From NCBI GenBank assembly GCA_012511955.1, contig JAAZFC010000059.1, positions 1 through 58,917 of the forward strand: 58,917 nucleotides of DNA, in the 5' to 3' direction. The position numbers and the translations under genes were made by a program. This DNA is from Fibrobacter sp. GTDB taxonomy: Bacteria > Fibrobacterota > Fibrobacteria > Fibrobacterales > Fibrobacteraceae. The notes under the pieces were generated by a model. It did no database searches and was not told the origin of the DNA. It saw only the letters and a list, made by a program, of their open reading frames with translations. This document shows positions 1,572 to 58,917 of this stretch, one piece after another (the stretch's first letter is position 1; each line of letters begins with the position of its first letter).

Positions 1572-2349
1572 ATCAGTGCATACTTTTGATGTTAGTAATG
1601 TAAGCAAAATTTTTGGCCAAGGTAAAAATCAGACGGTAGCTGTGGATGATGTTACCCTTTATGTAGCTGATGAAGAAATAATTTCCATTGTAGGTGGCTC
1701 TGGTTGTGGAAAAAGCGTACTTGCAAAAATGATGTTGGGTTTATATCCCCAAACTTCAGGTGAGTTTTTGTATAGAGGCGCACCTATAACAGATCAAAGA
1801 AAGCATTGGTCAGAAGTACAATCTGTATTTCAGGATCCATTTAGCTGTTTTAATCAGTTTTTCACCATAAGATCGCAACTGAAAGATGCATTTGGCATTT
1901 TGCCAGAGCGTTTATCTCGTGGAGAAGTTGAAGATCGCGTGGATGAAGCTCTCTTAGCTGTGAATGTTACCCCCAAAGATATAGAAGGTAAGTATCCTTT
2001 TGAACTTTCGGGTGGACAAATGCAACGGATGCTTTTAGCTCGTATTTTTGCATTGAAACCAAGAGTTTTAATAGCAGATGAACCCACATCCATGGTAGAT
2101 GCCTGTGTTAGGGCAAATATTTTGGACTATTTGATGAAACTGAAAGAAGAACTAAAAATGACCATTGTGTTTATAACCCATGATATTGGTTTGGCTTATT
2201 ATGTAAGTAACCGTATCTTCATAATGCACGAAGGTAAAATGGTAGAGATGGGGGAACCGGATCAGATTATCCAAGATCCTCAATCACCCCATACTGTTCA
2301 ACTTTTAGACGATATTCCAGACATTAATCGACAATGGATAAAAAGATAA
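1561..2349 (+). CDS. Oligopeptide/dipeptide ABC transporter ATP-binding protein, DppF/OppF type
   Basis: Second ATPase of the importer, 262 residues from the ATG at 1561. That ATG has a GAGGTG ribosome-binding site about 6 bases upstream, inside the previous gene; a GTG at 1555 is possible but less well placed. Walker A GGSGCGKS lies near residues 45-52, the signature is the classical LSGGQMQR, and Walker B is VLIADEPTSMVD (MVD instead of the common ALD). It lacks the long cysteine-bearing C-terminal extension seen in its partner. The gene overlaps the previous stop by 11 bases, which implies translational coupling. A strong terminator follows. Confidence 0.9.
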   Translation: MPNKSVHTFDVSNVSKIFGQGKNQTVAVDDVTLYVADEEIISIVGGSGCGKSVLAKMMLGLYPQTSGEFLYRGAPITDQRKHWSEVQSVFQDPFSCFNQFFTIRSQLKDAFGILPERLSRGEVEDRVDEALLAVNVTPKDIEGKYPFELSGGQMQRMLLARIFALKPRVLIADEPTSMVDACVRANILDYLMKLKEELKMTIVFITHDIGLAYYVSNRIFIMHEGKMVEMGEPDQIIQDPQSPHTVQLLDDIPDINRQWIKR

Positions 2350-2353
2350 TTTT

Positions 2354-2380
2354 AAAAGACCTTTCAAAAGGTCTTTTTTT
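2354..2380 (+). terminator. Rho-independent terminator of the ABC transporter operon
   Basis: An 11-bp perfect stem (2354-2364 with 2367-2377) with a two-base loop, running into a T tract that ends at 2381. It lies 5 bases after the stop of the last ATPase. It separates the transporter operon from the ribosomal-protein block. Confidence 0.9.
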
Positions 2381-2418
2381 TGTGTTTCCACTTGCAAAAT
2401 GCTGTGGTATTTCTATTA

Positions 2419-2459
2419 TTGACGCACTTTGTCAAAGTTCAGGGTTCCCGATTCCCTGA
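2419..2459 (+). promoter_or_regulatory. 5' leader of rplM with two short inverted repeats
   Basis: Between the terminator and rplM are two small inverted repeats: TTGAC/GTCAA (2419-2423 and 2431-2435) and TCAGGG/CCCTGA (2439-2444 and 2454-2459). TTGACG at 2419 could also act as a -35 box, but I see no convincing -10 at the right distance. L13 genes in other phyla carry autoregulatory leaders; whether this is one is a guess. Confidence 0.3.
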
Positions 2460-2484
2460 GCCACTACATAAAATTGAGGAATCT

Positions 2485-2919
2485 ATGAAAACCGTAATGG
2501 TAAACCCAAATGAAGTTAAAAGAAGCTGGAAGCTAGTTGACGCTGAAGCTTTGCCTATTGGTCGCGTAGCTAGCGAAGTGGCACGCCTATTAATGGGCAA
2601 ACACAAAGCTATTTATTCACCCAATGTTGATACAGGTGATTTTGTTGTGGTTATTAATGCTGATAAAGCAATTTTAACTGGCAATAAAGCCCAACAAAAA
2701 AAATATTTCCACCATACCCGCCATATTGGTGGCGAGCGTTGGATAAGTTATGCTCATTGGCAAGAAAAAGATCCTGCCTATCCCCTAAAAACTGCTATTA
2801 GAGGTATGATCCCTCATACAACGCTAGGTAATAAGATCTTTAAAAAGCTTAAAATATATGCTGGCAATGAACACCCTCATTCAGCTCAAAATCCTGAGTT
2901 GATAACTCTAAAAATTTAA
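2485..2919 (+). CDS. rplM: 50S ribosomal protein L13
   Basis: Large-subunit ribosomal protein L13, 144 residues, close to the usual 142. The family core is seen in WKLVDAEALPIGRVASEVA, VVVINADK, the YFHHTRHIGG segment and GMIPHTTLG. I place the start at 2485 because it has a GAGGA ribosome-binding site at 2476-2480 and gives the normal N-terminus; the in-frame extension back to 2380 encodes nothing like L13. It is followed by rpsI, the usual pairing. Confidence 0.95.
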   Translation: MKTVMVNPNEVKRSWKLVDAEALPIGRVASEVARLLMGKHKAIYSPNVDTGDFVVVINADKAILTGNKAQQKKYFHHTRHIGGERWISYAHWQEKDPAYPLKTAIRGMIPHTTLGNKIFKKLKIYAGNEHPHSAQNPELITLKI

Positions 2920-2934
2920 TCGGAGGATAAATCT

Positions 2935-3339
2935 ATCACTACCGCTAAAAATCAAGAAACCTATCGTGGAACTGGTCGTCGCAAAGATGCTGTAGCAAAT
3001 GTTATCATCAAGCGTGGAACCGGAAAACGCACTATCAATGGTTGTAGTTTCGAAGAGTATTTCCACTCTGAAACTCAAAACATGATAGCCAACTTACCTT
3101 TTGCTGTTTTAGAAAATGGCGATGATTGGGATGTGGTTGTCAATGCCAAAGGCGGCGGAATCGCTGGTCAAATGGGCGCTGTACGTTTAGGTATTGCCAG
3201 GGCCTTAGTAGAAAATGATGATACTATAAAAAGTGAATTGCGCAGAGAGGGTTTGTTAACCCGTGACGCACGAGTGGTGGAACGCAAAAAATACGGACGT
3301 GCTAAAGCCCGTAAACGCTTCCAATTCTCAAAACGCTAA
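2935..3339 (+). CDS. rpsI: 30S ribosomal protein S9, apparent ATC start
   Basis: Small-subunit protein S9. Conserved features are YRGTGRRKDAVANV at the N-terminus, GGGIAGQMGAVRLGIARAL in the middle and the basic tail ending FQFSKR, whose last residues reach the P-site tRNA in the ribosome. The frame is open back to the rplM stop at 2917-2919, but there is no ATG, GTG or TTG before the conserved region. A strong GGAGG at 2922-2926 is followed after 8 bases by ATC at 2935, exactly where a start belongs; this gives 134 residues. An internal ATG at 3082 would delete the N-terminal third of the protein and is not credible. Either ATC is used as a start, or an original ATG has been changed or misread at its third base. 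Confidence 0.85.
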   Translation: MTTAKNQETYRGTGRRKDAVANVIIKRGTGKRTINGCSFEEYFHSETQNMIANLPFAVLENGDDWDVVVNAKGGGIAGQMGAVRLGIARALVENDDTIKSELRREGLLTRDARVVERKKYGRAKARKRFQFSKR

Positions 3340-44083: not shown

Positions 44084-45418
44084 ATGAGTTCTAAAGAAAA
44101 TTCCCCCAAAAAAATCAAGGCCACCTTAAACAAGAAGTTTGGGCATAGCCGAGAAGATAGAAAGTCCCATAAACCAAGATTTTCCCCAGCTGGTAACAGC
44201 GATATTCCCGCCGAAGTTCCCGAAAAGACTTACGGCAGTAAGCGCGGCCAGCTTGAAAGAGAATTGCGTGCCAAAAAACAAGAGGAATTAGAAGCTTCCC
44301 AAGCTGGCGATGGTAGCGAAGTTTCGACGGAGCCTGCCGCAGAAAGAGAAGCTGGCGCAGACCGAGGCCGTTTCCGTAACGAGGGCAAACCTCGCTTTGG
44401 CGGCGATAGGGAAGATAGAGGTCGTTTCCGCAACGAGGGCAAGCCTCGCTTTGGCGGCGATAGGGAAGACAGAGGTCGTTTTCGCAATGAGGGTAAGCCT
44501 CGTTTTGGCGGTGATAGGGATGATAGAGGTCGTTTTCGCAATGAGGGCAAACCTCGTTTTGGTGGCGATAAAGGGGCTCCGCGCCGAGAAGAAAGACCTT
44601 GGATGCGTAGCAGACCAGATAATCGTCAAAAAAGCGATACTCCGAATCCGCCATGGTTAAGACGGGTTTTGCGCTTGACCACGGAAAAAGGCAGGGAAAA
44701 AACCGAAAACTTCCTCGCCGAGGGCGTGCGTTGTGTGCAAGAAATTGTGCAACATCATGCAGAAATCGTGCGCGAGATTTTCGTGGTGGATTCCTTTGCC
44801 GGAACTGAATTACTGCAAGCTATCACAGATAGGCAAATCCAAATTCAAACCATAAGCACCGCCGAAATGGAGCTGATTTCCACCATGGTGACAAACCAAG
44901 GAATCATAGCTATTTGTCGCAGTGCTTCGGTGAAACCCGATTACGACATGGCTCGCTTTTTAACCTTAGTAGATGGCATTCAAGATCCTGGCAATTTGGG
45001 TTCAGTGTATAGAACCAGTTTGGGATTTGCCTCCGATGGATTACTCTTAGGAAAAGGCACTGTAAGTGCGTTTAACCCTAAAGTGGTGCGCGGGTCTTCG
45101 GGGACTTTTTTGCGCGTACCCTTTGAGCAAGGGGTAGATATGCAGGAACGCATCATGTTTTTGCGCCAAAAAGGCTTTACCGTGATTGCTACTGATTTGC
45201 ACGCTAAGCAAGATTTAGCAGACATTGCTCCCTATAAATTGCGCAAAGTGGCTTTGTTGATTGGCAATGAAGGATCCGGTGCAGATATTGCCCATATACA
45301 ACACGCCGATGAAATCATTAAAATCCCCATGGAACAAAACTTGGAATCCCTTAATGTAGCCGTGGCTCATGGGATTTTAAGCTTCCAAATCAAAGAAGCG
45401 CTAAAAACAGGCGGGTAG
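44084..45418 (+). CDS. SpoU/TrmH-family RNA methyltransferase with Arg/Gly-rich N-terminal repeats
   Basis: A SPOUT methyltransferase of 444 residues, likely a 2'-O-methyltransferase of rRNA or tRNA. The N-terminal 180 residues are basic and disordered with four tandem 18-residue repeats of the type DRGRFRNEGKPRFGGDRE. The substrate-binding region starts near 185 (RRVLRLTTEKGREKTENFLA), and the knotted catalytic domain shows QDPGNLGSVYRTSLGF, NPKVVRGSSGTFLRVPF, LLIGNEGSGAD and NLESLNVAVAHGIL. The RGRF repeats recall RNA-binding RGG tails. It follows dxs by two bases. Confidence 0.88.
   Translation: MSSKENSPKKIKATLNKKFGHSREDRKSHKPRFSPAGNSDIPAEVPEKTYGSKRGQLERELRAKKQEELEASQAGDGSEVSTEPAAEREAGADRGRFRNEGKPRFGGDREDRGRFRNEGKPRFGGDREDRGRFRNEGKPRFGGDRDDRGRFRNEGKPRFGGDKGAPRREERPWMRSRPDNRQKSDTPNPPWLRRVLRLTTEKGREKTENFLAEGVRCVQEIVQHHAEIVREIFVVDSFAGTELLQAITDRQIQIQTISTAEMELISTMVTNQGIIAICRSASVKPDYDMARFLTLVDGIQDPGNLGSVYRTSLGFASDGLLLGKGTVSAFNPKVVRGSSGTFLRVPFEQGVDMQERIMFLRQKGFTVIATDLHAKQDLADIAPYKLRKVALLIGNEGSGADIAHIQHADEIIKIPMEQNLESLNVAVAHGILSFQIKEALKTGG
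44360..44575 (+). repeat. Four tandem 54-bp units coding the RGRF/KPRFGG repeats
   Basis: Starting at 44360, a 54-base unit is repeated four times in frame. The copies are close to identical, with mostly third-position changes (for example GACCGAGGCCG versus GATAGAGGTCG). Recent expansion by slippage or unequal crossing over is likely, so copy number could vary between strains. Confidence 0.85.
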
Positions 45419-45715: not shown

Positions 45716-46702
45716 ATGAAAAAAATAGGTGAAAATTCGCAATTTAACCGCAGTTTAGGCGCAAAAGCGGTACTGACTTTGCTATTGGTGACGCTGTGGG
45801 GGTGTGATAGCAGAAATACATCTGTTAGTTGGTTGGAGCGTGGTGCTGTTTTGACAAGTATAATAGATGATAGCTTAGCCATATATACAAATAATTCTAT
45901 TAAAATAATTTGCACGCAACCAAAATTTAATATACAAGGGATTAATGATTGTGAGTACTATGACTATAATCCAGGATTATATTTGGTGAACTACCGCAAT
46001 AAACAAGTCTATTGGGGAGATACACTTGATTATAATATGGTGGTGTTGCTAGGGCATCTGGATGATTCCACAGTATTCGTTGCAAATGAATCATTTACTG
46101 AATATGGCTATTGGAAAATTGGTGAAAAGCCTAAATTGGAGAATAAGTTAGACTTTCCTATGATAGGTGTTGATTGGAGCGTAGAAGCTAGGCCTTGGAA
46201 AAAGGGAGATATTTTGTTTTACAATTATTCTAACAATTTACGACATCACTGGATGATAGATAGTGCCGCCAGAGAGTTTCGTGAATTTGAATACACAGGG
46301 GAAGATACTTGGTTGGAGAGTTGTATAGACTTTAAATATCATGAGGGAGAGGTTTTTTGCGTGAAAATGGATAGCTCGGGTTCAGGTAACTTAAATTTAT
46401 GGGTAGATGGCACCGTTACCGATTCTCTATACCTAAACGGTTGTAAACTCATGGAAACTTATGGCTGGTATGGCCCTTATGTAGTATTGGACTTATACTG
46501 CTCACATTTTTATTCACCTCATGTTAAAGAAGTAGATTGGTGGTACGGCTTGTATGATGTGAGAAAGGTAGATTACACAAATCGAAGGTTTGATACTACT
46601 TTTAGTGGTTTATGGTTTAGCACTGAAAGAGGTTTTGCATTTGATCAAGGTAATTATACTATATTTGAACCAGAAGACTTAATAGTAACAGGAGGTGAAT
46701 AG
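45716..46702 (+). CDS. Lipoprotein of module 1 (paralogue family A)
   Basis: A 328-residue predicted lipoprotein: basic N-terminus, hydrophobic KAVLTLLLVTL, lipobox LWGCDS. The family shared with the next two lipoproteins is defined by SIIDDSLAIY-like starts, LVNYRNKQ, the RPWKKGDIL segment, and above all the block GEDTWLESCIDFKY to FCVKM with conserved Cys, and LWVDGTVTDSLY. The beta-rich, Trp/Asp-rich pattern could be a propeller-type or sandwich fold. The gene runs directly into the first hydrolase fragment (TAGTG overlap). Candidate immunity protein, folding partner or anchor; no function is established. Confidence 0.72.
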   Translation: MKKIGENSQFNRSLGAKAVLTLLLVTLWGCDSRNTSVSWLERGAVLTSIIDDSLAIYTNNSIKIICTQPKFNIQGINDCEYYDYNPGLYLVNYRNKQVYWGDTLDYNMVVLLGHLDDSTVFVANESFTEYGYWKIGEKPKLENKLDFPMIGVDWSVEARPWKKGDILFYNYSNNLRHHWMIDSAAREFREFEYTGEDTWLESCIDFKYHEGEVFCVKMDSSGSGNLNLWVDGTVTDSLYLNGCKLMETYGWYGPYVVLDLYCSHFYSPHVKEVDWWYGLYDVRKVDYTNRRFDTTFSGLWFSTERGFAFDQGNYTIFEPEDLIVTGGE

Positions 46703-46827
46703 TGAGAGTGGTTTTGTTTTTAGTATTGGGTTTGCTTAATGTATTGAGTTTCGCTAACTCAAAACCCATGGAGTCCCTTGAAAAGTACAATGTCGTTCTG
46801 GTGCATGGAGCCTCCAATTTTCTTTGA
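46702..46827 (+). pseudogene. Truncated hydrolase copy 1 (41 codons)
   Basis: Starts with GTG at 46702, one base overlapping the lipoprotein stop, with GGAGG 6 bases upstream. It encodes a signal peptide (VVLFLVLGLLNVLSFANS), KPMESLEKYNVVLVHGAS and then FL and a TGA at 46825. Copies 2 and 3 continue the same start into a complete hydrolase N-terminus, so this copy has lost everything after the VHGAS strand. Beyond the stop the sequence is unrelated non-coding DNA. Confidence 0.85.
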
Positions 46828-46861
46828 AATTAGCAGGCGCACTATTTCGTTGCACTGCGAT

Positions 46862-46904
46862 AAAATAACATTCGAAATACTATGTGTATTCCTCATGTTA
46901 TTTT
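46862..46904 (+). repeat. 10-bp perfect inverted repeat
   Basis: AAAATAACAT (46862-46871) and ATGTTATTTT (46895-46904) with 23 bases between, right after the broken end of hydrolase copy 1. Could be the end of a small mobile element or a bidirectional hairpin. Confidence 0.5.
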
Positions 46905-47194
46905 GTTGACACTGAACATCCATATTCAGTGCCCGTTGGGCTCACTGCGTGAGTCCCTCTCCGGCATCCATGCCTCTGTGGTGTGCGCCTCGTATTGCAT
47001 CCTGCTAATTCCAAAGAGCTTCTGGCTGCGCAGGCACACTACTTTAACCACGTACCCCGAGTGATTTCCCACATACGGTCTGGCGTAAGCCAAAAAGTAC
47101 CGAGGGGCACTTCGATACATCTCCAGCCTGCTTCGAGACGCTTTTGCCAACCTGCATCGGCTGGTTGGCTGATTGCTGGAAGTTCTAATATCTG

Positions 47195-47216
47195 AAAACA
47201 CTCGGGGAGCGTGGGC
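47195..47216 (+). repeat. Dispersed 22-bp repeat, copy B
   Basis: Second copy of the block at 31755-31776, one mismatch in 22. It is preceded by the TACCG...CGATACAT block near 47098-47120 and by a hairpin with the same outer bases as the one at 31661. Confidence 0.6.
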
Positions 47217-47321
47217 GAAAAATATCGAGGTGGCATTCATCCAGGCGGGGAGATTCACCCTATGATTTCCTGCCTCACTTTGTTATATTGCAAGAAAAAG
47301 GACTCCATGGGGGCACTAAAC

Positions 47322-48248
47322 ATGAAGAAATCAGCTAAAATCTCAAAAGTAAACCGTAACTTAGGTTCGAAAGCAGTGTTAGCCTTGCTATTGGTGGCGC
47401 TGTGGGGGTGTGATGGCACTAGAGCAGAGTGGGGTGAGCGCACTGGAAGGATGGTTTCGATTCTTAATGATTCTTTAGCATTGATTCAAGATTGGCGGCC
47501 TAAAAGTGTTTGCAAAGGCATGGTAACTAATGTTAGCTGTGTACATAGTTCGCATAATGCCGGCTTACATTTGGTTAATTATCAACAGCAGCAACCCGTA
47601 TTACTGAGCGATACTTTAAGTTACTATTTAAATGTAATGAGAGGGTATGTACGAGATTCCGTTGCATTTGTTGTGCATGAAAATACTAGTAAATTTGCTT
47701 TTTGGAAAGTGGGACAAAAACCAAGTCCATGGAAAGACTGGTACTGGCCCAGCTCATGCGCTCGTCATATTTCTGTAGAAGACTTGATCAGGCCTTGGAA
47801 AAACAATCAATTTATAATTAGAGAGAGGACAGCTTCTTGCCCGAATGTGCTATTAGACACTACAACCGGGCAGGTTTCCATTTTTGAATTTAGCGGGGAA
47901 AACGCTTGGCTTAGTGAATGTACCGATTTTAGCTATGTAGATGGTAAAATTTATTGTCTTAGAGTTAGTTCACCTCAAACCTTAGATTTGTTGGTAGATA
48001 ATGAGTTAATGGATGTTTTGCATAGTGAAGCTTGTGAGTTTGTTAAAGAAAAACCACGCAGGGTGAGTAAAGAGTCGGTGGAATTGTTTAATGAGTATGT
48101 TTCTATTCAAACGAAATGTTCTTATGGATATAATCAGCATAAACTAGACGCTGATAAAATGTCCTTTGATACAACTTTTTCAGAAGTAACTCTTAAAGGA
48201 AAAAGGTTTATTCATCAAGATGGTAGAGTGGTTGATTACTATGAATAA
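47322..48248 (+). CDS. Lipoprotein of module 2 (paralogue family A)
   Basis: A 308-residue lipoprotein from ATG 47322 (or 313 from an in-frame ATG at 47307 that has the AAAAAGGA box). N-terminus and upstream leader are nearly the same as in module 1: KAVLALLLVALWGCDG. The rest diverges but keeps the family marks: SILNDSLALI, LVNYQQQQ, RPWKNNQFI, GENAWLSECTDFSYVDGKIYCL and LLVDNELMDVL. So the signal region is conserved while the mature part is diversified. The end overlaps a possible upstream start of hydrolase copy 2. Confidence 0.72.
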   Translation: MKKSAKISKVNRNLGSKAVLALLLVALWGCDGTRAEWGERTGRMVSILNDSLALIQDWRPKSVCKGMVTNVSCVHSSHNAGLHLVNYQQQQPVLLSDTLSYYLNVMRGYVRDSVAFVVHENTSKFAFWKVGQKPSPWKDWYWPSSCARHISVEDLIRPWKNNQFIIRERTASCPNVLLDTTTGQVSIFEFSGENAWLSECTDFSYVDGKIYCLRVSSPQTLDLLVDNELMDVLHSEACEFVKEKPRRVSKESVELFNEYVSIQTKCSYGYNQHKLDADKMSFDTTFSEVTLKGKRFIHQDGRVVDYYE

Positions 48249-48267
48249 AAACTTACTAGGAGAAAAA

Positions 48268-48903
48268 ATGAGATATTTTTTGCTGTTGATATTATTGATG
48301 CTGGGGTTGGCCTACTCTAATGCTAAACCCATGGAATCCCTTGAAAAATACAATGTAATCATGGTGCATGGCGCCTCTAATTCTACTAATGGATTACAAG
48401 AACTGTGTAATGGTGCTGATACCTTACCGGAAGCCTCAGATTTTCACAAAGCATATATGCAAAAAATAGAAGAGAATGATAAATTTGAAGAAAATTGGGG
48501 ATTGGGCACAGCTGTGAATATGATGGGCGGCTATCATAGTAAAGACACCCTAACTCATTGGCTGGATACTGAAGTATTTGAAAAGTATAGACATTTTAAA
48601 TCTGACGACCCCGAAGGCGCTTCTCCGATCTACATTCAGCGTTCTTTTGTTAACCCGGCCAATTCGCCCATAGCTAATGCACGGGAATTGGGGGGTCCTA
48701 CCTGGAATGGTTTGGGTAAGTGTTCTAAACGCCGTTCTTTAATCGAAGAGGCCCAAGAAGTCAAGGCTGGCGGTCGTGGGAATTTGAAGAGATTGCGCAC
48801 TTCTAAAAATTACTTCGACATCCCCTCGCGTAACATTTTGATTGGTTACAGCATGGGCGGCGTGGCATCCAGTGAGTATGTGCGGGGGAATTTTTGTGCT
48901 TAA
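48268..48903 (+). pseudogene. Truncated hydrolase copy 2 (211 residues)
   Basis: ATG 48268 with AGGAG 5-6 bases upstream. Signal peptide (LLLILLMLGLAYSNA), KPMESLEKYNVIMVHGAS, and the alpha/beta-hydrolase N-terminal half up to the nucleophile elbow IGYSMGGVASSEYVRG (Ser 195). Immediately after this it ends in NFCA-stop. It aligns well with copy 3 (shared RRSLIEEAQEV, IPSRNILI). It cannot form a full enzyme because the acid and histidine parts are missing. The start of the next lipoprotein overlaps its last 8 bases. Confidence 0.85.
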
Positions 48904-49891
48904 ATCAATACAACTCGCCAACAACATATTTTGTAGATATTTATTTGTGTTAACAGTTATGGTTGCGAACGCAATGTTTTTAGGTTGTGGCAGCTCAGAG
49001 ACTAGGCCTGCGAGTCCCTCTGTAAGTATGTTAGGAATTCTTAATGATTCAACTGTTGTTTTGAAAGTAACAAAGAATCAAGAAACATGCGTAGAAACAC
49101 TTCTGGGTAATAGTTGCTATGGAAAATATGCAGTTAATCAGTATGTTGCCGTTTTTGATCTTCGTTCGCATTTGTCGTTAGTACAATCATTAGAAATTGA
49201 CACATCATACTCGCTAGTGACTCAAGTTTCGGATTCTTCTTTTGTATTCTTGAATGGAAATGGAGTTTTGGGGTATTACAATAGCTCGAAAAACCAATTT
49301 GATGAAGTAGCGATCAATTGGGGAACTTGTAATGTGATAAATAAAAATCTACGGGCTAGAATATGGAGAAATGAAACGATCCTTCTTAGTTCCTATCGTT
49401 CTAATTCTGTGGATTCTCAATGTGATTTTATTGAAGTAGATATTATTTCAAAATCTATGCAACCAGTGCTGTTAGCTGGTGATTATAAGTGGTTGATTGA
49501 TTGTGATGATTTTTATTTTTCTTCTGAAATAGATAAACCTGTATGCGCAATGCTTTCGAATACTCTAAGTTGCAATATTTTTTTATTTATTGATGGAATT
49601 GTTAAAGATTCTGTTTTGCTTGGGGATAAATCCTGTGAATTGATAGGCTCTTCTGGACGTACATACAACCTCAATTGGTTGGGGAATTATCTGGTTACAC
49701 CAAAATCAAGCAATAGTTCTAACTATTTATCGCAGAAACTTTTAGGGGATACTGTGATGAGTGTTGATGCAAATGAGTCAACTTTTAACAGACAAATGCC
49801 GGAAATGTGGCTTTCGGTAACTGGTATTGTCTTTGACGGATCGTTTATGCCATACTCATCGTTCCCATTCAATAATTTGTTGGAGAATTAA
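48896..49891 (+). CDS. Lipoprotein of module 3 (paralogue family A, diverged)
   Basis: A 331-residue lipoprotein from GTG 48896 (GGGGGA about 8 bases upstream). The signal sequence (YLFVLTVMVANAMFLGCGS) with lipobox FLGC is unlike those of modules 1 and 2. The mature part shares GILNDSTVVL, a CxDF-type block (WLIDCDDFYFS, then CAMLS) and LFIDGIVKDSVLL. It is longer in low-complexity Ser/Asn segments. It lies directly before the intact hydrolase gene (one base gap), which suggests a dedicated partner. Confidence 0.7.
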   Translation: MLKSIQLANNIFCRYLFVLTVMVANAMFLGCGSSETRPASPSVSMLGILNDSTVVLKVTKNQETCVETLLGNSCYGKYAVNQYVAVFDLRSHLSLVQSLEIDTSYSLVTQVSDSSFVFLNGNGVLGYYNSSKNQFDEVAINWGTCNVINKNLRARIWRNETILLSSYRSNSVDSQCDFIEVDIISKSMQPVLLAGDYKWLIDCDDFYFSSEIDKPVCAMLSNTLSCNIFLFIDGIVKDSVLLGDKSCELIGSSGRTYNLNWLGNYLVTPKSSNSSNYLSQKLLGDTVMSVDANESTFNRQMPEMWLSVTGIVFDGSFMPYSSFPFNNLLEN

Positions 49892-49892
49892 T

Positions 49893-52800
49893 ATGAATAA
49901 GTATTTTATAACGATGATTGTTGTGATATTTGGATGCTTATGGGCTGGCAATAAGCCAATGGAGTCCGTCACTCGATACAATGTAATTCTTGTGCACGGA
50001 GCTTCTGATAGATGGGGTGGGATGGACTGTAATGCTGAGAATTTTCCTGAAGCATACCGGAGCCCTCGTGATAGTGTGACAGGCTATTTCGAAATGGTTG
50101 GTGGAATTCAGAATGGTGATTGGAAATCTTCAGCTGCCAAAATGCTAAGAGCTTTAGTGCCATGGCTCTCAGATACCATTTTGGAAGATAAAAATGTCGT
50201 TTATCTGCAGAGACCATTAACTCAACCTGCTGGTTCTCCTCTTCAAAACGCTAGTGAAATTGGAGATAGAAAGTGGAAAGGTAAAGGAGGGTGCGCTGCG
50301 CGGAGGTCTTTATTTGAAGAAGCTCAAGAAATTCGGGCTAATGATCAAAAAGAATTAGCAACAAAACGTAGCTCTATGGCGTATAGATTGATACCTTCAA
50401 GAAACATCATCATTGCCCATAGTATGGGAGGTGTGACATCACGGGAATATATACGATCAAAGTCATATAACAATGATGTTGATAAAGTCATAACTCTTGA
50501 TTCCCCTCATGAAGGTACCGGAAGTTTAAACTTACTATTAGACATTAACGATGATCTTCGGGCTGTTGTAGAAACTGGAACAAATGCTATTCCGTTGGCC
50601 ATTGCTACATCAATTACTATGGCTTCAATTGGAAAAGAACCAGGCACAATTATTCCAGCTATTCTTGGTCTTGCAGAATCAATTGCATTAAACGGTATGA
50701 ATTATGGCACGCGATTAGCGATAATGAATTCATTGAAGCCAAAAGGATTTGATTTCACTAAAGACGATGCTCTAGCTGATTATATTGATCCAATAGCGCA
50801 TAATAGTAGTGGCATTGATAACCTGATAAATGAAAGAATATCAGATAGCCTTCCGATGTTTAGGTTATTGGGCGGAAGAAATAGCATGGTTTTTACAGAT
50901 CCCAATGTTGGCTGGAGAACGCCGTCGAATGTTTTTATACCCGCAGCCATTACGGTACCGTTTGCAAATGTGTGGGCACAATCAACAGGAGCTAGTAGCC
51001 AAAAGACAAATTTTATTAATGCATTAACAGGATTTACTGTTGGCCTTTTGGGCGGTATCACTTTAGAGGATCACGGTACGGCATTGATTCCAGAATGGAG
51101 TAGTTTGGCAAAGAATACGCCTTTGCTAAATAACCAAAAAGTAGATGTGAAAAGAATGCAATATGATGGTGATATTTTTGCCAAGTCAGCGGACGCAACA
51201 TTTGCAGCTTCGTTAACGGGTTTGGGCGCTGCAATTATTGCTCTTGATGTTGCTTTATCTTGGAACTATCCAATTGCGACTGGAGCAAAAGTAGGTCTAG
51301 CGATTGCAGGTTCTACACTCTTATCTGCTGGCATAGTGACTGCTACTATGATCGGTGTAGAAGATATACAAATGTCACATAAAGCCCCATCGCTTTCTGA
51401 ATATCAAGCGCAGTGGTTTGGTAATCCTTCAACATATAATTTACTCACAGGGAAGCAATCCACCATCACCCCCTACCTTATGGAAGATTTTCTTTATGAA
51501 AAGCCTTTTGTAAACCTGCGAGTTAGCAGTGCCAATGATTTTACAGAAGTCCCCGATAGCACCAACCAAGATAGCTTGGGCCTTTATTACAATTGCGATA
51601 GTAATGTCTGTCAATCTTTGGCAGTTATTGCTCCCGATACCACAAAAAAGTATCCCTTGACCTTTAAAAACGCTTATGATTGGGAGAAAATGGGCGTTAA
51701 AATCGATACTTGGACTCGGGTTTCGGGGGTAGATGGCACAGTTCCCATTCGCCATGTAAATCGTTATGCCATGCCAGATGTAGTGGTTGAAGATAACATT
51801 AATCGCTATAGTTTTGTTGTGGACGATCTGATGCCCCACCGTTTGCGCCAAATTCGCATAAACTTTAACTTTGTAGAGGACTTAGCTTGGGAATGTGATA
51901 TTAGTAAAGCAGAAGATGCCCAAGATGCTTGTGATGTATATACTCGCAGCGGTGGTAGTGATTGGGTTAAAAAAGATAAAAAAGTGGCACATCCGGTTAA
52001 AAAAGACGGCTCTTTTGATTTAAATATGGGTGATTATTACAAGAGCCTTTTGGGGGTGCAAAAAGACAATCAAAATACCGTTACCATCTCCACGGTTAAT
52101 AAAATTGGTTTATCCAACACCCAGCGCTTTCATTATCTGTTTAAAGCCACTGCTAATTTCATTCAACCTCGCTGGCCTTTGCCCGGGGTGGCGGTGAGCA
52201 AAATCGACAGTTTTGTAACCTATGCTTCTACTCTAGATTATCAAGGTTATGCGGTTAAATCAGGCCAAGATTGCATTTTTATAGATCACCTTGATAGCGC
52301 AAGTTGTGTAGAATCATCTTATGTAAATATGACTTTAGATGGAGCAGATGGCGGTGCACTTTTATTTTCAAATAATAAAGCCGACAGCGTGGAATATAGC
52401 GGTCCGATGCTGTGGAGTTTGCAGATAAACACCGAAAATTCTTCAGGGAATAGTAACGATGAACTTATCATTCCTTTTAAATTAGATCAAAGACCTCCAG
52501 AAATAACTATCAACGCAGAGGCTGCGGTTTTAAACCCCGATTCCACCGCGTTTATGGCGCGTTTTTACAATAACATTAGTGTGGATCCTTCGTTGCGCTT
52601 GGTGCGCATGAAGTTAGAGCGTTTGCAAAATAATACCCCTAGCAAAACATGGGATTTACCCTTGTTTACCAATGTGTTAAGCCACGAGTTTGCTATTGAT
52701 TGGACTGGTTTAGACAAGGAATCATTGTCAGATGGGGTTTATCGTTTAATTGCTTTGGCGCTGGACAACGCTGCGCCTAATCGTAGTCTGCACGAGGCGG

Positions 52801-55800
52801 TAAATAATGTGGTTTCTCTGGCTAGTTCGCCAATAGATTCAGATCAATTTAAAAGAGATTGGTATAATATTGCATCGCCAGACTCCCCTTGGATCTTGCG
52901 GGATGGCCTCAACAGCACCACAGACACTGCTACTTTTGTCATAGATCGCACCGCCCCAACGGTTTCCGTGGATGCTTTAACCGCAAATACTAGTTCTAAT
53001 AGTAGATATCCGCAAAGCGAAACTAAGCGTAGCGGCTGGGTTACCTTAAACAAATATCAAACCTTAGCTGCAGATTATGCGGTGCAAGAGCCAATGCTAC
53101 AGCGCGACACAGCACTGGTATCGTTGTTGTGGCGTTTTACTAGTTTAAACGATAGCAACCAAAGTCATCAAGCCGGCATGGAGCAAATTATAACTAGCGA
53201 TAATGCTGTAAGTGGCGTTTGGGAAGAATCCGCGCAAAATCTTATTCCCGAAGGTGATTATCAATTGCGCTTATTGGCACGGGACGCAGCTGGCAATGTG
53301 AATTCAGCAGCTGCAGCCCTTAAAGTGCGTATAGATCGCACTGCTCCGCAGGTGGAAAACCTAATAGCAAGCCAATTAGTGTATGTGAATACTTATGATA
53401 CGGTTAAGGCTTCATTTTCGGTTTCGCAAGCCGCAGACTTAGACTCCAATCGCTCAGATTTGCAGTGCTATTATAGAGTGCGGGGAGCCGGGGTTGCTCA
53501 CTCCGATTGGGTTTTGACTGGAACTGATACTAAATCCCAAAGTTCTACCTCTAATTATAAATCCAAGATAGACTTTGTGGTGGATCCGGCAATGCTCGTA
53601 AATGCCACGGGCAAAATGTATTTAGAAGCGGGCTGTTTAGATGCGGTGGGTAACTTTGGCTTTAGCACTGATTTGTTCCATTTTGGTGCCTTGTACCCCA
53701 CCATTATTTCTCCAGATTCAACTGGGGAATTAGCAAATGAGTTTGTGGTTATCACGGGTATAGCCCATCCTCCCCAAGATGCTAACATCAAAGCGATAGA
53801 GGGTAACGGTGGCTATCGTTTGCGTTGGCGTAACTTTGTGTCTAGCACTTGGACTACGGAAGGGTTAGATGTGGGGGCGGGTAAAAGAAAAAGTGCAGAG
53901 ACTCCCTGGCTTTCCAATGAAGCCCAGCCCGCAGAGGGGGTTTTAGGTATTTGGGATCGGCGTTCTTTGCCTTATGGGGATTATATGCTGGAATTGGCCA
54001 GCCAAAGTTGCGATACCTGCCCATGGGTGACAGATTCCATGAAAGTTATTTTGACTGATGTTGCGCCTGACACGGTGTCAAAGTTAGTGCTGACGGTGGT
54101 TGATTCTATGCAAGCGGGGCATGAAATTGCTATTAGTATGAACATGGTGGGTGCTACAGCTGATTTTAGTGGACGCATTTATGCTCAAGATAAATCCGGT
54201 ACCGCTATGTTTGAGGTATCTACGGAGAAAATTAAAGCTTCGCCTTATGTGGGCCCTCCCGTGAATCCGGGCCGTCAAGATGGAATCTGGTTTTGGAGTC
54301 AAGATGATAAATACTATTTGCAATGGCAGGGCCTAGCTGCGGATGATACTTTAAAAATCAACTTTAAAGATGGGGCTATTGAAAGTTTGTGTTACGATGG
54401 CGCCGCAACGCCAGTGGCTAATTGTCGAGTGGAAGATAATCAAGCCTCTAGCTCAACAACTAATTGGAATTTGGTGGATTCGAGCATTCAGGGAAACTTG
54501 AGTGAGTATTTTCAAATACCAGCAGATTTAAATAAGACCATGGTGTTATATGGTGCAGCTGGTTATGTCACATTTAATAGTTCCTCCGCTTTTTACATTG
54601 ATTTAAATAGTTTATGGGATAGTACAGGGGCAATGGCTTTGCCTTATTGGCTAGGCGGTGCCACAGAAGCAAGCACAGTGGCGAGTGGGGTGTCTTTTGC
54701 TATGCCCTTTATTTCGGTAAATCCTCAATTGTATGGTTTGAGCACCAACTGGGACGGTATGTCATCCACAGGGCATTTTCCCCAGGGTGGCGAGGTAACC
54801 ATATACGCCGAAAGTTATGAAAATGCCATGTATGGAAAAGTGTTTCGCGATTCGGTTACTATCAAGGTGAGCTTGCCTAATTTGAAATTAGTGAGTGATA
54901 CTAAGGATTTAGGTGAGTTTTATGTGTTGCAAGATATGCAAGAAATGGCAAAATCCCCAGTGGTGGGCAAAAAACAGCTGAGTTATGGGGTGTATGGCCG
55001 CAATGCGCGGGTGAGTGCTTGGATAGAAGACGGATTTGGCAAAAATATTCGCAATTTATTGGATAACATACCGCAAAAAGCAACTTCATCCAAGCAAGCA
55101 TATACCGTGGCTTGGGATGGCGTTAACGAACAAGGTCATTTAGTAACCACGCCGGATACTTACACTTTTGTAATTAGCGCCCAAGAAGAGGGCGGTTCCC
55201 AACCGGCAACTTTACGGGTGCCATTTAGACTAACGGTACCGTCCAGTGTGGTGGAAGTGGTGGATGATGGCAGCACTGCTAGTTCAAAGTCGGGTTTAAG
55301 GGTGGCGGAGGCTGTTGCAGATCCCGATTATGACGGTGCGTATTTATACGCTCCCCAGGCGGATTATTTAATTAAAGCTAATTTGCAAGGAAAGTATTTA
55401 CCCGATAGCTTGCGTAAAGTAAGTCTGGAACATAGTGTAACAGGCACGCAAAATGCTATTGGTTATCCTCCGCAACGCTTTTCCTTGGCGGTAAAACGCC
55501 AAAGAGACCGGCTGGATTTGGTGATAGTGTATATGGTAGATAGAACATTAGAAAAAACTACTTATCCTGGTTGCAAGCAAGAACCAGCTTATGATGAAGT
55601 TTTTATTCAAGCGGAATCAATGCTTTTTACTGCCAGTGATAGCGTACATGAAATAGTTGTTGATTTGCCAGCAGGAGACAATAGGGGATTCTATGCTCCA
55701 TCAATGGACACGGCTAAAATCCGTATGATCGCATTAATGCGAAAAGATTGGGAGGCTTTTAGAAAAGAAATGCCCACAGGTTGGGGTAATAATATAAGAG

Positions 55801-58800
55801 AAACATTTAAAGAATTAAGTGATAAAAAAGCGATTTGGAGTGCAAGAGATCCCTACGGTAATGATGGCATCCAGATTCCTAAAGTTCATACTACTAATAA
55901 AGTCAATATAAGCCCTGGCGATGTTAATTGCGTGGTCAGTGATTCATTGAAAAATGTTTGCACTTACACAACTGATGGCTATAATCCAAATCAAAATTTA
56001 TTTAAAATAGGTATGTATAGTGATCATGAAAATTTTTATTATAATTATAAATATGTTCGACCTGGTGTACCCACGTGTTATACTAAAAGATACCAAAGCT
56101 TAGGGTTCAAGGTTCAACTCACCATCCCTGATGATTATTGGAATGCCGGCTATGGCTATGATAACCTAGTGAACCGCACCCTTCGTTTTGATCAAACCAA
56201 TTTGACTATGTTTGGAGAATCAAGTAGCTACTTATCGGCGCTAAAATCGTTAGCAGACACTAATGATAACTTTAAGCCGATTTTTAACCACCTGTTTCAC
56301 GACGGCGCTAAATGGAATAGCAACACAAATTATGGAAGGCTAACTCCTTTTGAAGTACACAATTTCCCATTTATTAGCGCTAACGCCTTTCCAAGCCCCC
56401 AAAACACCTTTTTATTACCCGATGAAGTTGGTGGGTTTGAATATCCATCGTATTTACACGCTAAGTTTTATGGGAAAAACGAAGTTGGAAGTTTTGTCGC
56501 AAAAATTTTAGGTAAACCCGTTCACGAAAATACTTGCCCGAAGTGGGATGCTGATGGGCGTTGTGAAATTACCTTGGTGAACAAGAGGGAATCTTCGGTT
56601 AGCACGCCGCTATTGCAGCATGGAAACATTAACATTATGGTGGGCTTAAATGCGCAAAAGAGTGATTATGATAGCAAATATACGGTTACCATCCCCAAAC
56701 CCGCACCTATGAATTGGATGGAAAGCTTACATGATACTGTTAAGTGTCCCGCGCACACCGACGCCATTTGGACTTCTAATGAAAACGCTTTTGCCTCTTG
56801 CCAAAAGTTTTATACCGTGGGCTCGTATGTAAACTATCATACAGGTGATTATTCCCCAGAAAAGTGGGATTCTGTTATGCTTGACAATTTTACTAATAAG
56901 TATTTGGCTAATCAGATTAATAAACCCGGGCAAGCATTATATATAGATTCGCTCAACATCTTCCCTAATTTTAATGCGGCTCTGGCAGGTAAAGAAGCGA
57001 TAACAACTACGACTGAAGTGGAATTCAGTCCGAAAAATTATGAAAATGGGGTGTTTTACATACTCCAAGGTCTTGGTAGGCCCGAGTATAATGCTGCATA
57101 TAGCGAAACCATTACTACTAAGGTAGTAAATGTGGATTCTAGCCTAGTATGGTGGAATGCAAGCGAAAAAAGATTAGAAGCGAAAGCCCAGGATTGGATG
57201 GATCCCGCCTTGGATTCTAATAAAGTGATTTATCGCCGCACTTTAGATAAAATAAATGAGCAAACTATACCCCCAAGTACCAAGAAAGCACTCGGGTTTT
57301 CGTTGGAAGATTTGTATTTTGGGCAAGTGGGTATCAAAGACCGTTTAGAACCCGGATTAAGCTTGTATGACTCTCTTAATGAACGGAATAATTGGATTAA
57401 AGAGGTAAAATTGGCTTCACCCGCATTAACGCATTTGGATAGTACGGTGCATACTCATTTTACCGTTTCTGCTACCCCGGGTGATACCGTGGTAAACATA
57501 GTCCGCAAAGATGCAACGACTAACATTAGAGCTAAAGAGTTGGTGGCCATTCACGGTCAAGTACCGGCAGGTCAAAACTATCAGTTAGCTTATCTCTATA
57601 AGGGCGCTATTGAAAATATCGCAAGCGATACCATGCCTACGATTTCAGCGCATGATAGCATTTATGGGGGTACTTTCGCCGGCCTACCGCGTTTAAATTG
57701 GTTTGATGTTAATCGTTTGCAAGGTAACACCTCTTTAATGCTTTTTTGGCAAGAAGAGCCAAGTTCCCAACTAAATTTCCGCAAGTTGGATTTAAATATT
57801 GGCACGCCAGTTAGGGACAGTATTGATAGTAAAACAGTAACTTCAATTTTTGGAGAGTTAAGCGTAAGTTTTGACAATGTAGTAACCGACGAAAAGCGCA
57901 TGGATGTTACGGTGCGGGTGGCTAACCCCAGCGATTATGGCTTTGAGGTGTTTAATGGCGCTCCTTTGCGGGGGCCAGTGATGGAAGTTTTACCCTCCAT
58001 GACTTTTGCCGAAGGGTCTTACCCCCGGGTGAAAATGGTGATTGCTCGTGAAGAAATAGAGGAGTATGAACAAGACCCTTCTCGCATTCGCTTATATAAG
58101 GTGGATTTTGCCAATCAGCAATTTGTGCCCTTACAAAATGTGCTATATGGCTATTTAACCAAGGATGATACTGATATAAATAAGGTTAATGAGTGTGATA
58201 AACCTTTTAGTTCTCTTTGTTATAAAGATGACAATTGGACACATTTACTGGTTTCCGGCGAAACCTCCACTTTCTCGGCCTTTGTGGCTTTAGATTATCA
58301 GAATGTAGGGTCGGGTGGCGTAGAGTTTAGCCTGCACCCTCAAGTGGGCACCGAATTGCGCCGTCATATTCTAGTTTCCGGGGCTGAAAGCTATAATATC
58401 TATCTCGACGACGACCCGATTTGGGGCGATAGTACAGATGCCACCCCGCCGGAATTGCTAAGCGTGCATACCGATAGCCTGGGTAAGCCCTATATTTATT
58501 TACCCCAACGCACGGATTCTTGGCTTTATTTAGTGCCCAAATACCAAGGTGCGGAACTGGCCGATGCACCCTTGCGGGTGCATGCCCAAGTGGTACCGGC
58601 TAATATGCTTTGCACCATGCCCGATACCCTGTTGTGGTTGGGTTTAGACAATGGCTATTTAGAGTTGGCCCAATCGTGTAACCAAGGGGGCGTGGGTACT
58701 TTACAGTTGCGCCAAGATAATAAAGTAAAAGCTGAAATTTACCAGTCATTACCCGATCCCTTCCACTGGGACGGCAGCTTGGGCGTAAATAAAATTAAGT

Positions 58801-58917
58801 TTGGCAGTTATCAAAGCCGCTATATTGGCCTCGCCTTTACTGAGGCGCAAACCCAAATTGCGGGCCCGGAAATTCGCACCGATAGCCTGCGTCCGCGCAT
58901 CTCCCATTGGTCAGTTA
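49893..58917 (+). CDS. Giant secreted alpha/beta-hydrolase (lipase-like) surface protein, 3' end outside window
   Basis: An open frame of at least 3,008 codons running off the window. ATG 49893 with GGAG 7 bases before. Signal peptide about 1-20 (MIVVIFGCLWAG). The hydrolase has YNVILVHGAS (oxyanion strand), the nucleophile elbow IAHSMGGV with Ser177, and TLDSPHEG at 201-208 as in PGAP1/lipase-type enzymes. A lipase-like GVDGTVPIRHV near 612-622 may give the Asp/His. After that come bacterial Ig-like modules (ending FVIDRTAP about 1020, RDAAGNVN about 1130), a FlgD-like module (YTVAWDGVNEQGHL about 1740), and long unidentified beta-rich regions with sparse cysteines. No stop codon is met. Substrate unknown; the protein may act on surface lipids or other cells. 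Confidence 0.85.
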   Translation, partial: MNKYFITMIVVIFGCLWAGNKPMESVTRYNVILVHGASDRWGGMDCNAENFPEAYRSPRDSVTGYFEMVGGIQNGDWKSSAAKMLRALVPWLSDTILEDKNVVYLQRPLTQPAGSPLQNASEIGDRKWKGKGGCAARRSLFEEAQEIRANDQKELATKRSSMAYRLIPSRNIIIAHSMGGVTSREYIRSKSYNNDVDKVITLDSPHEGTGSLNLLLDINDDLRAVVETGTNAIPLAIATSITMASIGKEPGTIIPAILGLAESIALNGMNYGTRLAIMNSLKPKGFDFTKDDALADYIDPIAHNSSGIDNLINERISDSLPMFRLLGGRNSMVFTDPNVGWRTPSNVFIPAAITVPFANVWAQSTGASSQKTNFINALTGFTVGLLGGITLEDHGTALIPEWSSLAKNTPLLNNQKVDVKRMQYDGDIFAKSADATFAASLTGLGAAIIALDVALSWNYPIATGAKVGLAIAGSTLLSAGIVTATMIGVEDIQMSHKAPSLSEYQAQWFGNPSTYNLLTGKQSTITPYLMEDFLYEKPFVNLRVSSANDFTEVPDSTNQDSLGLYYNCDSNVCQSLAVIAPDTTKKYPLTFKNAYDWEKMGVKIDTWTRVSGVDGTVPIRHVNRYAMPDVVVEDNINRYSFVVDDLMPHRLRQIRINFNFVEDLAWECDISKAEDAQDACDVYTRSGGSDWVKKDKKVAHPVKKDGSFDLNMGDYYKSLLGVQKDNQNTVTISTVNKIGLSNTQRFHYLFKATANFIQPRWPLPGVAVSKIDSFVTYASTLDYQGYAVKSGQDCIFIDHLDSASCVESSYVNMTLDGADGGALLFSNNKADSVEYSGPMLWSLQINTENSSGNSNDELIIPFKLDQRPPEITINAEAAVLNPDSTAFMARFYNNISVDPSLRLVRMKLERLQNNTPSKTWDLPLFTNVLSHEFAIDWTGLDKESLSDGVYRLIALALDNAAPNRSLHEAVNNVVSLASSPIDSDQFKRDWYNIASPDSPWILRDGLNSTTDTATFVIDRTAPTVSVDALTANTSSNSRYPQSETKRSGWVTLNKYQTLAADYAVQEPMLQRDTALVSLLWRFTSLNDSNQSHQAGMEQIITSDNAVSGVWEESAQNLIPEGDYQLRLLARDAAGNVNSAAAALKVRIDRTAPQVENLIASQLVYVNTYDTVKASFSVSQAADLDSNRSDLQCYYRVRGAGVAHSDWVLTGTDTKSQSSTSNYKSKIDFVVDPAMLVNATGKMYLEAGCLDAVGNFGFSTDLFHFGALYPTIISPDSTGELANEFVVITGIAHPPQDANIKAIEGNGGYRLRWRNFVSSTWTTEGLDVGAGKRKSAETPWLSNEAQPAEGVLGIWDRRSLPYGDYMLELASQSCDTCPWVTDSMKVILTDVAPDTVSKLVLTVVDSMQAGHEIAISMNMVGATADFSGRIYAQDKSGTAMFEVSTEKIKASPYVGPPVNPGRQDGIWFWSQDDKYYLQWQGLAADDTLKINFKDGAIESLCYDGAATPVANCRVEDNQASSSTTNWNLVDSSIQGNLSEYFQIPADLNKTMVLYGAAGYVTFNSSSAFYIDLNSLWDSTGAMALPYWLGGATEASTVASGVSFAMPFISVNPQLYGLSTNWDGMSSTGHFPQGGEVTIYAESYENAMYGKVFRDSVTIKVSLPNLKLVSDTKDLGEFYVLQDMQEMAKSPVVGKKQLSYGVYGRNARVSAWIEDGFGKNIRNLLDNIPQKATSSKQAYTVAWDGVNEQGHLVTTPDTYTFVISAQEEGGSQPATLRVPFRLTVPSSVVEVVDDGSTASSKSGLRVAEAVADPDYDGAYLYAPQADYLIKANLQGKYLPDSLRKVSLEHSVTGTQNAIGYPPQRFSLAVKRQRDRLDLVIVYMVDRTLEKTTYPGCKQEPAYDEVFIQAESMLFTASDSVHEIVVDLPAGDNRGFYAPSMDTAKIRMIALMRKDWEAFRKEMPTGWGNNIRETFKELSDKKAIWSARDPYGNDGIQIPKVHTTNKVNISPGDVNCVVSDSLKNVCTYTTDGYNPNQNLFKIGMYSDHENFYYNYKYVRPGVPTCYTKRYQSLGFKVQLTIPDDYWNAGYGYDNLVNRTLRFDQTNLTMFGESSSYLSALKSLADTNDNFKPIFNHLFHDGAKWNSNTNYGRLTPFEVHNFPFISANAFPSPQNTFLLPDEVGGFEYPSYLHAKFYGKNEVGSFVAKILGKPVHENTCPKWDADGRCEITLVNKRESSVSTPLLQHGNINIMVGLNAQKSDYDSKYTVTIPKPAPMNWMESLHDTVKCPAHTDAIWTSNENAFASCQKFYTVGSYVNYHTGDYSPEKWDSVMLDNFTNKYLANQINKPGQALYIDSLNIFPNFNAALAGKEAITTTTEVEFSPKNYENGVFYILQGLGRPEYNAAYSETITTKVVNVDSSLVWWNASEKRLEAKAQDWMDPALDSNKVIYRRTLDKINEQTIPPSTKKALGFSLEDLYFGQVGIKDRLEPGLSLYDSLNERNNWIKEVKLASPALTHLDSTVHTHFTVSATPGDTVVNIVRKDATTNIRAKELVAIHGQVPAGQNYQLAYLYKGAIENIASDTMPTISAHDSIYGGTFAGLPRLNWFDVNRLQGNTSLMLFWQEEPSSQLNFRKLDLNIGTPVRDSIDSKTVTSIFGELSVSFDNVVTDEKRMDVTVRVANPSDYGFEVFNGAPLRGPVMEVLPSMTFAEGSYPRVKMVIAREEIEEYEQDPSRIRLYKVDFANQQFVPLQNVLYGYLTKDDTDINKVNECDKPFSSLCYKDDNWTHLLVSGETSTFSAFVALDYQNVGSGGVEFSLHPQVGTELRRHILVSGAESYNIYLDDDPIWGDSTDATPPELLSVHTDSLGKPYIYLPQRTDSWLYLVPKYQGAELADAPLRVHAQVVPANMLCTMPDTLLWLGLDNGYLELAQSCNQGGVGTLQLRQDNKVKAEIYQSLPDPFHWDGSLGVNKIKFGSYQSRYIGLAFTEAQTQIAGPEIRTDSLRPRISHWSV

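Follow-up and report, generated by a model that had tools for sequence, protein, structure and literature searches.

Polymorphic toxins have been described as carrying their variable tips at the C-terminus and as being encoded in toxin-then-immunity order, which has been argued to enable the exchange of tip and antidote in a single step (Zhang et al. 2012, PMC3482391). The orphan modules of contact-dependent inhibition (CDI) systems have been read as retained immunity or as a silent reserve (PMC4927057), the immunity proteins of the Tle lipase effectors are usually periplasmic or lipoproteins (PMC9860674), and the TANFOR toxins of Bacteroidetes, which are large and secreted and have a C-terminal toxin, are proposed substrates of the type IX secretion system (T9SS; PMC7073777). 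Here, we analyzed a stretch of 58,917 nucleotides (hereafter referred to as the window; contig JAAZFC010000059.1 of assembly GCA_012511955.1, Fibrobacter sp.), which belongs to a 2.68-Mb genome in 150 contigs from the family that also holds Fibrobacter, and found at its right end three open lipoprotein genes of one family, each directly 5' of the start of a secreted hydrolase. We consider it likely that this locus acts in the manner of polymorphic toxin-immunity systems, with the layout of CDI/Rhs mirrored.

The three tandem modules and their open lipoproteins, first noticed in a sequence-only reading of the window, were confirmed by open reading frames (ORFs), and their coordinates were refined. 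The hydrolase starts comprise 41, 211 and more than 3,008 codons; the third is open to the contig end, and its description as intact covers the 3,008 codons up to that point, its relatives having 3,600-4,090 aa. The enzyme start common to the copies is a true repeat family (83% and 65% DNA identity), and lipoprotein copies 1 and 2 share 74% identity across their first 100 nt. The parts of the array are listed below, with scores from hidden Markov models (HMMs).

45716-46702, + strand: orphan lipoprotein 1, an ORF of 328 aa with lipobox ...LWGC-D (family HMM, 241 bits)
46702-46827, + strand: truncated hydrolase copy 1, from GTG at 46702 to TGA at 46827, 41 codons (hydN HMM, 39 bits)
46818-47020, no strand given: dispersed genomic repeat adjoining the break of hydrolase copy 1, with 47 genome matches
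47322-48248, + strand: orphan lipoprotein 2, an ORF of 308 aa from ATG at 47322 (HMM, 270 bits)
48268-48903, + strand: truncated hydrolase copy 2, 211 codons, stopping just after the nucleophile motif GYSMGG and lacking the catalytic His region
48896-49891, + strand: lipoprotein 3, 331 aa from GTG at 48896, the predicted immunity partner of the intact enzyme
49893-58917, + strand: giant secreted protein of more than 3,008 aa, leaving the contig without a stop; signal peptide, lipase domain and conserved body with Ig-like domains
49893-51623, + strand: variable N-terminal lipase tip (aa 1-577), with Ser177 in AHSMGG, invariant Asp203 and His496, and membrane-type hydrophobic helices
49950-50300, + strand: putative lipase specificity region A (aa ~20-136), co-varying with the lipoprotein N-part (partial r 0.65-0.67)
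50334-50393, + strand: putative lipase specificity patch (aa ~148-167) between RRSLFEEAQE and AHSMGG, marked by near-identical module pairs and by partial r 0.41-0.49 with the lipoprotein C-third
51663-52283, + strand: conserved junction block (hydC, by HMM), with the identity jump at the homologous position in relatives

We surveyed 101 Fibrobacterota genomes and detected the hydrolase in 36 and the lipoprotein in 25. The comparison covered about 40 loci from this survey and 37 named loci (F. succinogenes metagenome-assembled genomes, F. intestinalis ATCC 43854, Ca. Fibrimonas, and Fibrobacteria AD312 and GUT307), all mapped by HMM searches for the lipoprotein and for three sections of the hydrolase. 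This search in related genomes, which had been proposed as a check, recovered the lipoprotein-hydrolase pair in dozens of loci, and the pairing is therefore not due to chance. The recurrent order, on a single strand, was n modules of lipoprotein and truncated hydrolase followed by a lipoprotein and an intact giant of 3,600-4,090 aa, and at least two lipoproteins were present in 28 of the compared loci (some of them duplicates). In the HMM maps, the lipoprotein preceded every variable-type giant that has upstream sequence; at L129, the family HMM missed it, yet a diverged lipoprotein ORF sits before the giant. Type I restriction-modification-like genes (829-3148) lie directly 5' of this L129 pair, on a contig that is labelled Bacteroidales and probably comes from Fibrobacter through mis-binning; mis-binning is also suspected for L146 (Paludibacteraceae) and L164 (archaeon). 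Paralogous giants (L112-L128; about 3,000-5,300 aa or more) have other, lipase-related N-termini and occur without this lipoprotein, which therefore belongs to the lipase tip and not to the body. At L124, two tandem small lipoproteins of a different family lie directly upstream of the giant and are possibly a second immunity family.

Mantel correlations of pairwise identities among 21 complete main modules gave r = 0.83 between the lipoprotein and the N-terminal part of the lipase and r = 0.62 between the lipoprotein and the middle part of the lipase. The corresponding values against the body were 0.23 for the lipoprotein and 0.13 for the N-terminal lipase, and the junction block and the body gave 0.78. 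Lipoprotein and N-terminal lipase vary together as a single cassette, decoupled from the body, and cassettes appear to be joined to the body by recombination within the junction block. Identity between the main and orphan cassettes of F. intestinalis (L073/L143) is about 40-60% over lipoprotein and lipase and 94-95% over the conserved block that follows the lipase, at which the orphan ends; in L140, L145 and L156, identity likewise jumps at this block, from 40-55% to ~95%. Such an abrupt jump points to tip replacement by recombination, in which one crossover of an incoming cassette in the conserved block would leave the old truncated cassette upstream and set the new one on the old body. We also found a cassette that is an orphan in one genome (L145) and the main cassette in another (L086), with 90-100% (mostly 97-100%) identity across the lipoprotein and most of the N-terminal lipase, then 56%.

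The conserved LDSPHEGTG segment, at which this identity drops, is a second recombination point; many short orphans stop at this place and are fused to the promoter/ribosome-binding site of the next lipoprotein. Site-specific recombination at the recurrent junction of short orphans (ALNMQ followed by LGLLLFCSKIRRKSFKENRV and a stop) was considered and rejected: the tail is the promoter/ribosome-binding site of the next lipoprotein read as protein, and an ancestral junction spread by homologous recombination is therefore the simpler account. The sequence-only reading had described the array as decayed tandem enzyme copies. Truncated copies are indeed present, but simple tandem duplication with neutral decay was rejected on the identity jumps and the conserved orphans, and a more fitting description of the arrays is that of cassettes displaced from a 5' tip that recombines.

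The lipoprotein was intact in 50 of 56 internal orphan modules, as against a complete single-frame catalytic domain in 6, in line with the earlier suggestion that immunity genes are kept as orphans; 39 modules retained some hydrolase start and 16 had no enzyme at all. In truncated orphan hydrolases of about 225-260 residues, the His region is missing and no activity is expected. The ratio of nonsynonymous to synonymous substitution rates (dN/dS) between orphan lipoproteins was mostly 0.14-0.4, including 0.22 (L076) and 0.33 (L102) where neither lipoprotein has an enzyme and 0.14 for two lipoproteins of one genome that are accompanied by enzyme stubs only (L103/L105). These values indicate purifying selection on the orphan lipoproteins, whose enzymes are dead. 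In the window, hydrolase copy 1 retains the signal peptide and KPMES..YNV..VHGAS and is broken where the dispersed repeat starts (46818-46819); the genome matches of this repeat fall mostly within the first ~206 nt of the query. The GTG start of lipoprotein 3 overlaps the stop of hydrolase copy 2. Two further lipoprotein copies, both without hydrolase, lie elsewhere in the window's genome. One (L012, G000:C124, 7692-8648) is an intact orphan among ordinary genes, with 45% identity to lipoprotein 2 and no hydrolase remnant detected at the locus; the other (L011, G000:C82, 5555-7433) has a frame break and an adjoining IS3-type transposase gene.

In near-identical module pairs (L081/L159, L135/L136, and L091/L141 orphan 1), the differences were concentrated in the lipoprotein's C-terminal third and in one short lipase segment between RRSLxEEAQEV and xHSMGG; the signal peptide differed too. 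Other pairs showed the converse, among them L141 main/L137, which matched at 0.93 in the lipoprotein C-part and 0.95 in the patch, with 0.48 in the lipoprotein N-part and 0.62 in lipase region A. Across 47 modules, partial correlations were 0.41 between the lipoprotein C-part and the patch and 0.66 between the lipoprotein N-part and region A, with cross terms of 0.13 and -0.02. This double dissociation held in 26 main modules alone and in 21 orphans alone, and was weaker in remote pairs alone. The adjacent pair of lipoprotein C-part and region A, which simple linkage would favour, showed almost no correlation. Because the matched halves correlate without cross-correlation, unlike what simple linkage predicts, we read them as two putative regions of physical contact between lipoprotein and lipase.

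The giant of the window matched PGAP1 (E = 3.7e-7) and, weakly, the Ig-like domain Big_13. Apart from the PGAP1 core, the variable enzyme parts had no curated-family match above cut-off, and the lipoproteins of the window were not assigned above cut-off by Pfam, NCBIfam or PADLOC; annotation pipelines are therefore likely to miss both. The PADLOC defence-system library gave no meaningful match, and a PDB sequence search returned no significant relative of the lipoprotein. AlphaFold2 predicted lipoprotein 2 to be all-beta and propeller-like (pLDDT 86.5), with WDR4, FBXW11 and BamB as the best Foldseek matches (E about 1e-5, low TM-scores). For the lipase tip, the model (577 aa, pLDDT 77) is similar to triacylglycerol lipases of bacteria; Tle4 was a weak structure match at rank 32, and PlaB was among the weaker ones. 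The candidates for the catalytic triad (Ser177 in GxSxG, His496 and several Asp) were invariant in 32 complete sequences. Despite a mean identity of about 36%, nearly all lipase members have hydrophobic segments at one or both of two recurrent positions, which would suit action on membranes. A related giant from a closed genome (L079, 3,901 aa) additionally contains Laminin_G_3, which is lectin-like, and FlgD-Ig domains.

As in CDI (CdiA/CdiI) and Rhs systems, the locus combines a giant, putative delivery protein with a constant body, a swappable tip and an adjacent cognate partner gene, and its displaced orphan modules keep homology to the main gene (PMC3482391, PMC4927057). Unlike in these systems, the tip is N-terminal, the order is lipoprotein-then-enzyme in all arrays, orphans pile up upstream, and a predicted lipase takes the place of the usual nuclease. 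Pfam and NCBIfam scans of the giants found no CdiA/CdiB, Rhs or other known delivery domain and reported no TANFOR domain. The likeness to TANFOR toxins lies in the large secreted protein, in the Fn3-type repeats often present in TANFOR proteins and in possible T9SS export; those toxins, however, have an N-terminal constant domain, a C-terminal toxin and downstream immunity. A lipase with a dedicated membrane-linked partner gene also recalls LipA/Lif, from which the locus differs in the partner fold, in the persistence of the partner without enzyme and in hypervariable specificity.

The sequence-only reading had proposed an effector-immunity system related to Tle and its immunity proteins, Tli. 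With Tle/Tli, above all Tle4/TplE, the locus shares a GxSxG alpha/beta hydrolase of PGAP1-like type; it differs in having a signal peptide and giant body, no type VI secretion system (T6SS) in the genome, and a lipoprotein that is encoded upstream and propeller-like. No Tli, Tli4 included, was among the 50 best structure matches of the lipoprotein, and the lipase matched PGAP1 and lipase families and Tle4 weakly, so that the link is one of functional analogy. The effector-immunity idea itself fits the cassette co-variation, matched patches, tip swaps, orphan selection and missing sheath gene, without the kinship to Tle/Tli. On the features tested, the locus falls outside CDI, Rhs and Tle/Tli. 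A literature search of limited scope found no description of an N-terminal, immunity-first polymorphic toxin or of this Fibrobacter family.

The T6SS sheath gene VipB was not found in the window's genome, for which T6SS delivery was rejected, nor in the listed Fibrobacter-type array genomes (e.g., G009, G016, G022, and G025); several relatives of another genus (g6) carry it. Carriage by phages or plasmids was rejected as well, since no relatives of the enzyme were found in the viral contigs searched and none of the lipoprotein in the plasmids searched. By eye, the conserved C-terminal tail that the giants have in common looks like a T9SS sorting domain, T9SS-type tails are present in the window's genome, and enzymes of F. 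succinogenes have been proposed to use T9SS (PMC6851124). The giant is probably held at the surface by this tail, perhaps through the type IX route. Anchoring at the C-terminus would make the N-terminus distal, and the end opposite to that in CDI would therefore vary.

Other explanations account for part of these data. The constant adjacency and co-variation of lipoprotein and lipase, and their apparent physical pairing, would also be expected if the lipoprotein were a dedicated folding or export helper, or a surface anchor, for the lipase tip, like the foldase Lif. We regard this as unlikely: orphan lipoproteins with a dead enzyme or none are intact under purifying selection, the lipoprotein is all-beta and propeller-like whereas Lif is helical, and related giants with other N-termini manage without a lipoprotein. 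The truncated upstream cassettes, being homologous to the main gene, could instead serve as silent donors for a surface adhesin that varies its N-terminus to evade phages, protozoa or host defences, with the lipoprotein as assembly partner, and the Ig/lectin domains of the giant body would suit such a role. This antigenic or receptor variation is quite improbable, given that the catalytic residues, unneeded for evasion, are invariant in complete copies and that lipoproteins remain where the enzyme is entirely gone.

The lipase-like fold and the gut fibre habitat would also suit a conventional lipase that is secreted to act on plant or membrane lipids, is accompanied by a regulatory lipoprotein, and has been duplicated in tandem and is decaying neutrally. 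We consider this very improbable, as neutral decay gives neither abrupt identity jumps at one block nor a decoupling of cassette and body, and leaves the matched patch replacement and the conserved orphans unexplained.

Several observations weigh against a toxin-immunity system. The giant C-terminal tail did not match PF18962 or its NCBIfam equivalents for the T9SS sorting domain. One genome per species was compared, which gives no strain-level picture of switching, and the Mantel statistics allow for shared ancestry through permutation only. Some module pairs depart from the matched-patch rule, such as L082:3199/L131:5740 (lipoprotein C-part 0.94, patch 0.52). One orphan lipoprotein pair had a dN/dS of 0.87, and orphan dN/dS partly records the time preceding orphaning. 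The 16 modules without enzyme are of the kind that the sequence-only reading had named as speaking against immunity; we read these lipoproteins as orphan immunity because the genes stay open and conserved.

For a polymorphic toxin-immunity system, the mechanism that we infer builds on the observed cassette structure, recombination breakpoints, co-variation and orphan selection. The giant would be exported through its signal peptide and present the N-terminal tip, which would act on contact as a toxic lipase on the membranes of neighbouring bacteria. The upstream-encoded lipoprotein, in the cell envelope, would bind the cognate lipase at two contact regions and block it, which would protect the producer and its kin. 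New cassettes of promoter, lipoprotein and lipase tip would be acquired through homologous recombination, either within the conserved block that follows the lipase or at the LDSPHEGTG segment, and the old lipoprotein and truncated lipase would remain upstream as an orphan module. The orphan lipoprotein may be kept because it still guards against neighbours using the old tip, while the orphan lipase decays. More tentatively, and with somewhat less than even confidence, we propose back-to-front contact-dependent kin discrimination, with a C-terminally anchored giant, an exchangeable N-terminal lipase tip, an upstream beta-propeller immunity lipoprotein and two independently swappable contact halves, as a major interbacterial weapon of Fibrobacteraceae that has no counterpart among the described polymorphic toxin classes.

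Outside the array, three 54-nt direct repeats (44359-44570) lie in the N-terminal part of an RNA methyltransferase-like gene. The first residues of the contig (1-40; TAGERQRSVIGI) duplicate part of the ABC ATPase encoded at 597-1571, which suggests a small assembly artefact at the contig end.

The locus would run the evolutionary logic of polymorphic toxins in reverse and may thus offer a direct test of the gene-order argument (PMC3482391), with the prediction that anchoring polarity decides which end varies. The matched specificity halves may provide a ready system for studying the birth of toxin-antidote specificities by recombination. If this reading is true, Fibrobacter, a keystone cellulose degrader of herbivore guts, would gain a predicted polymorphic weapon.

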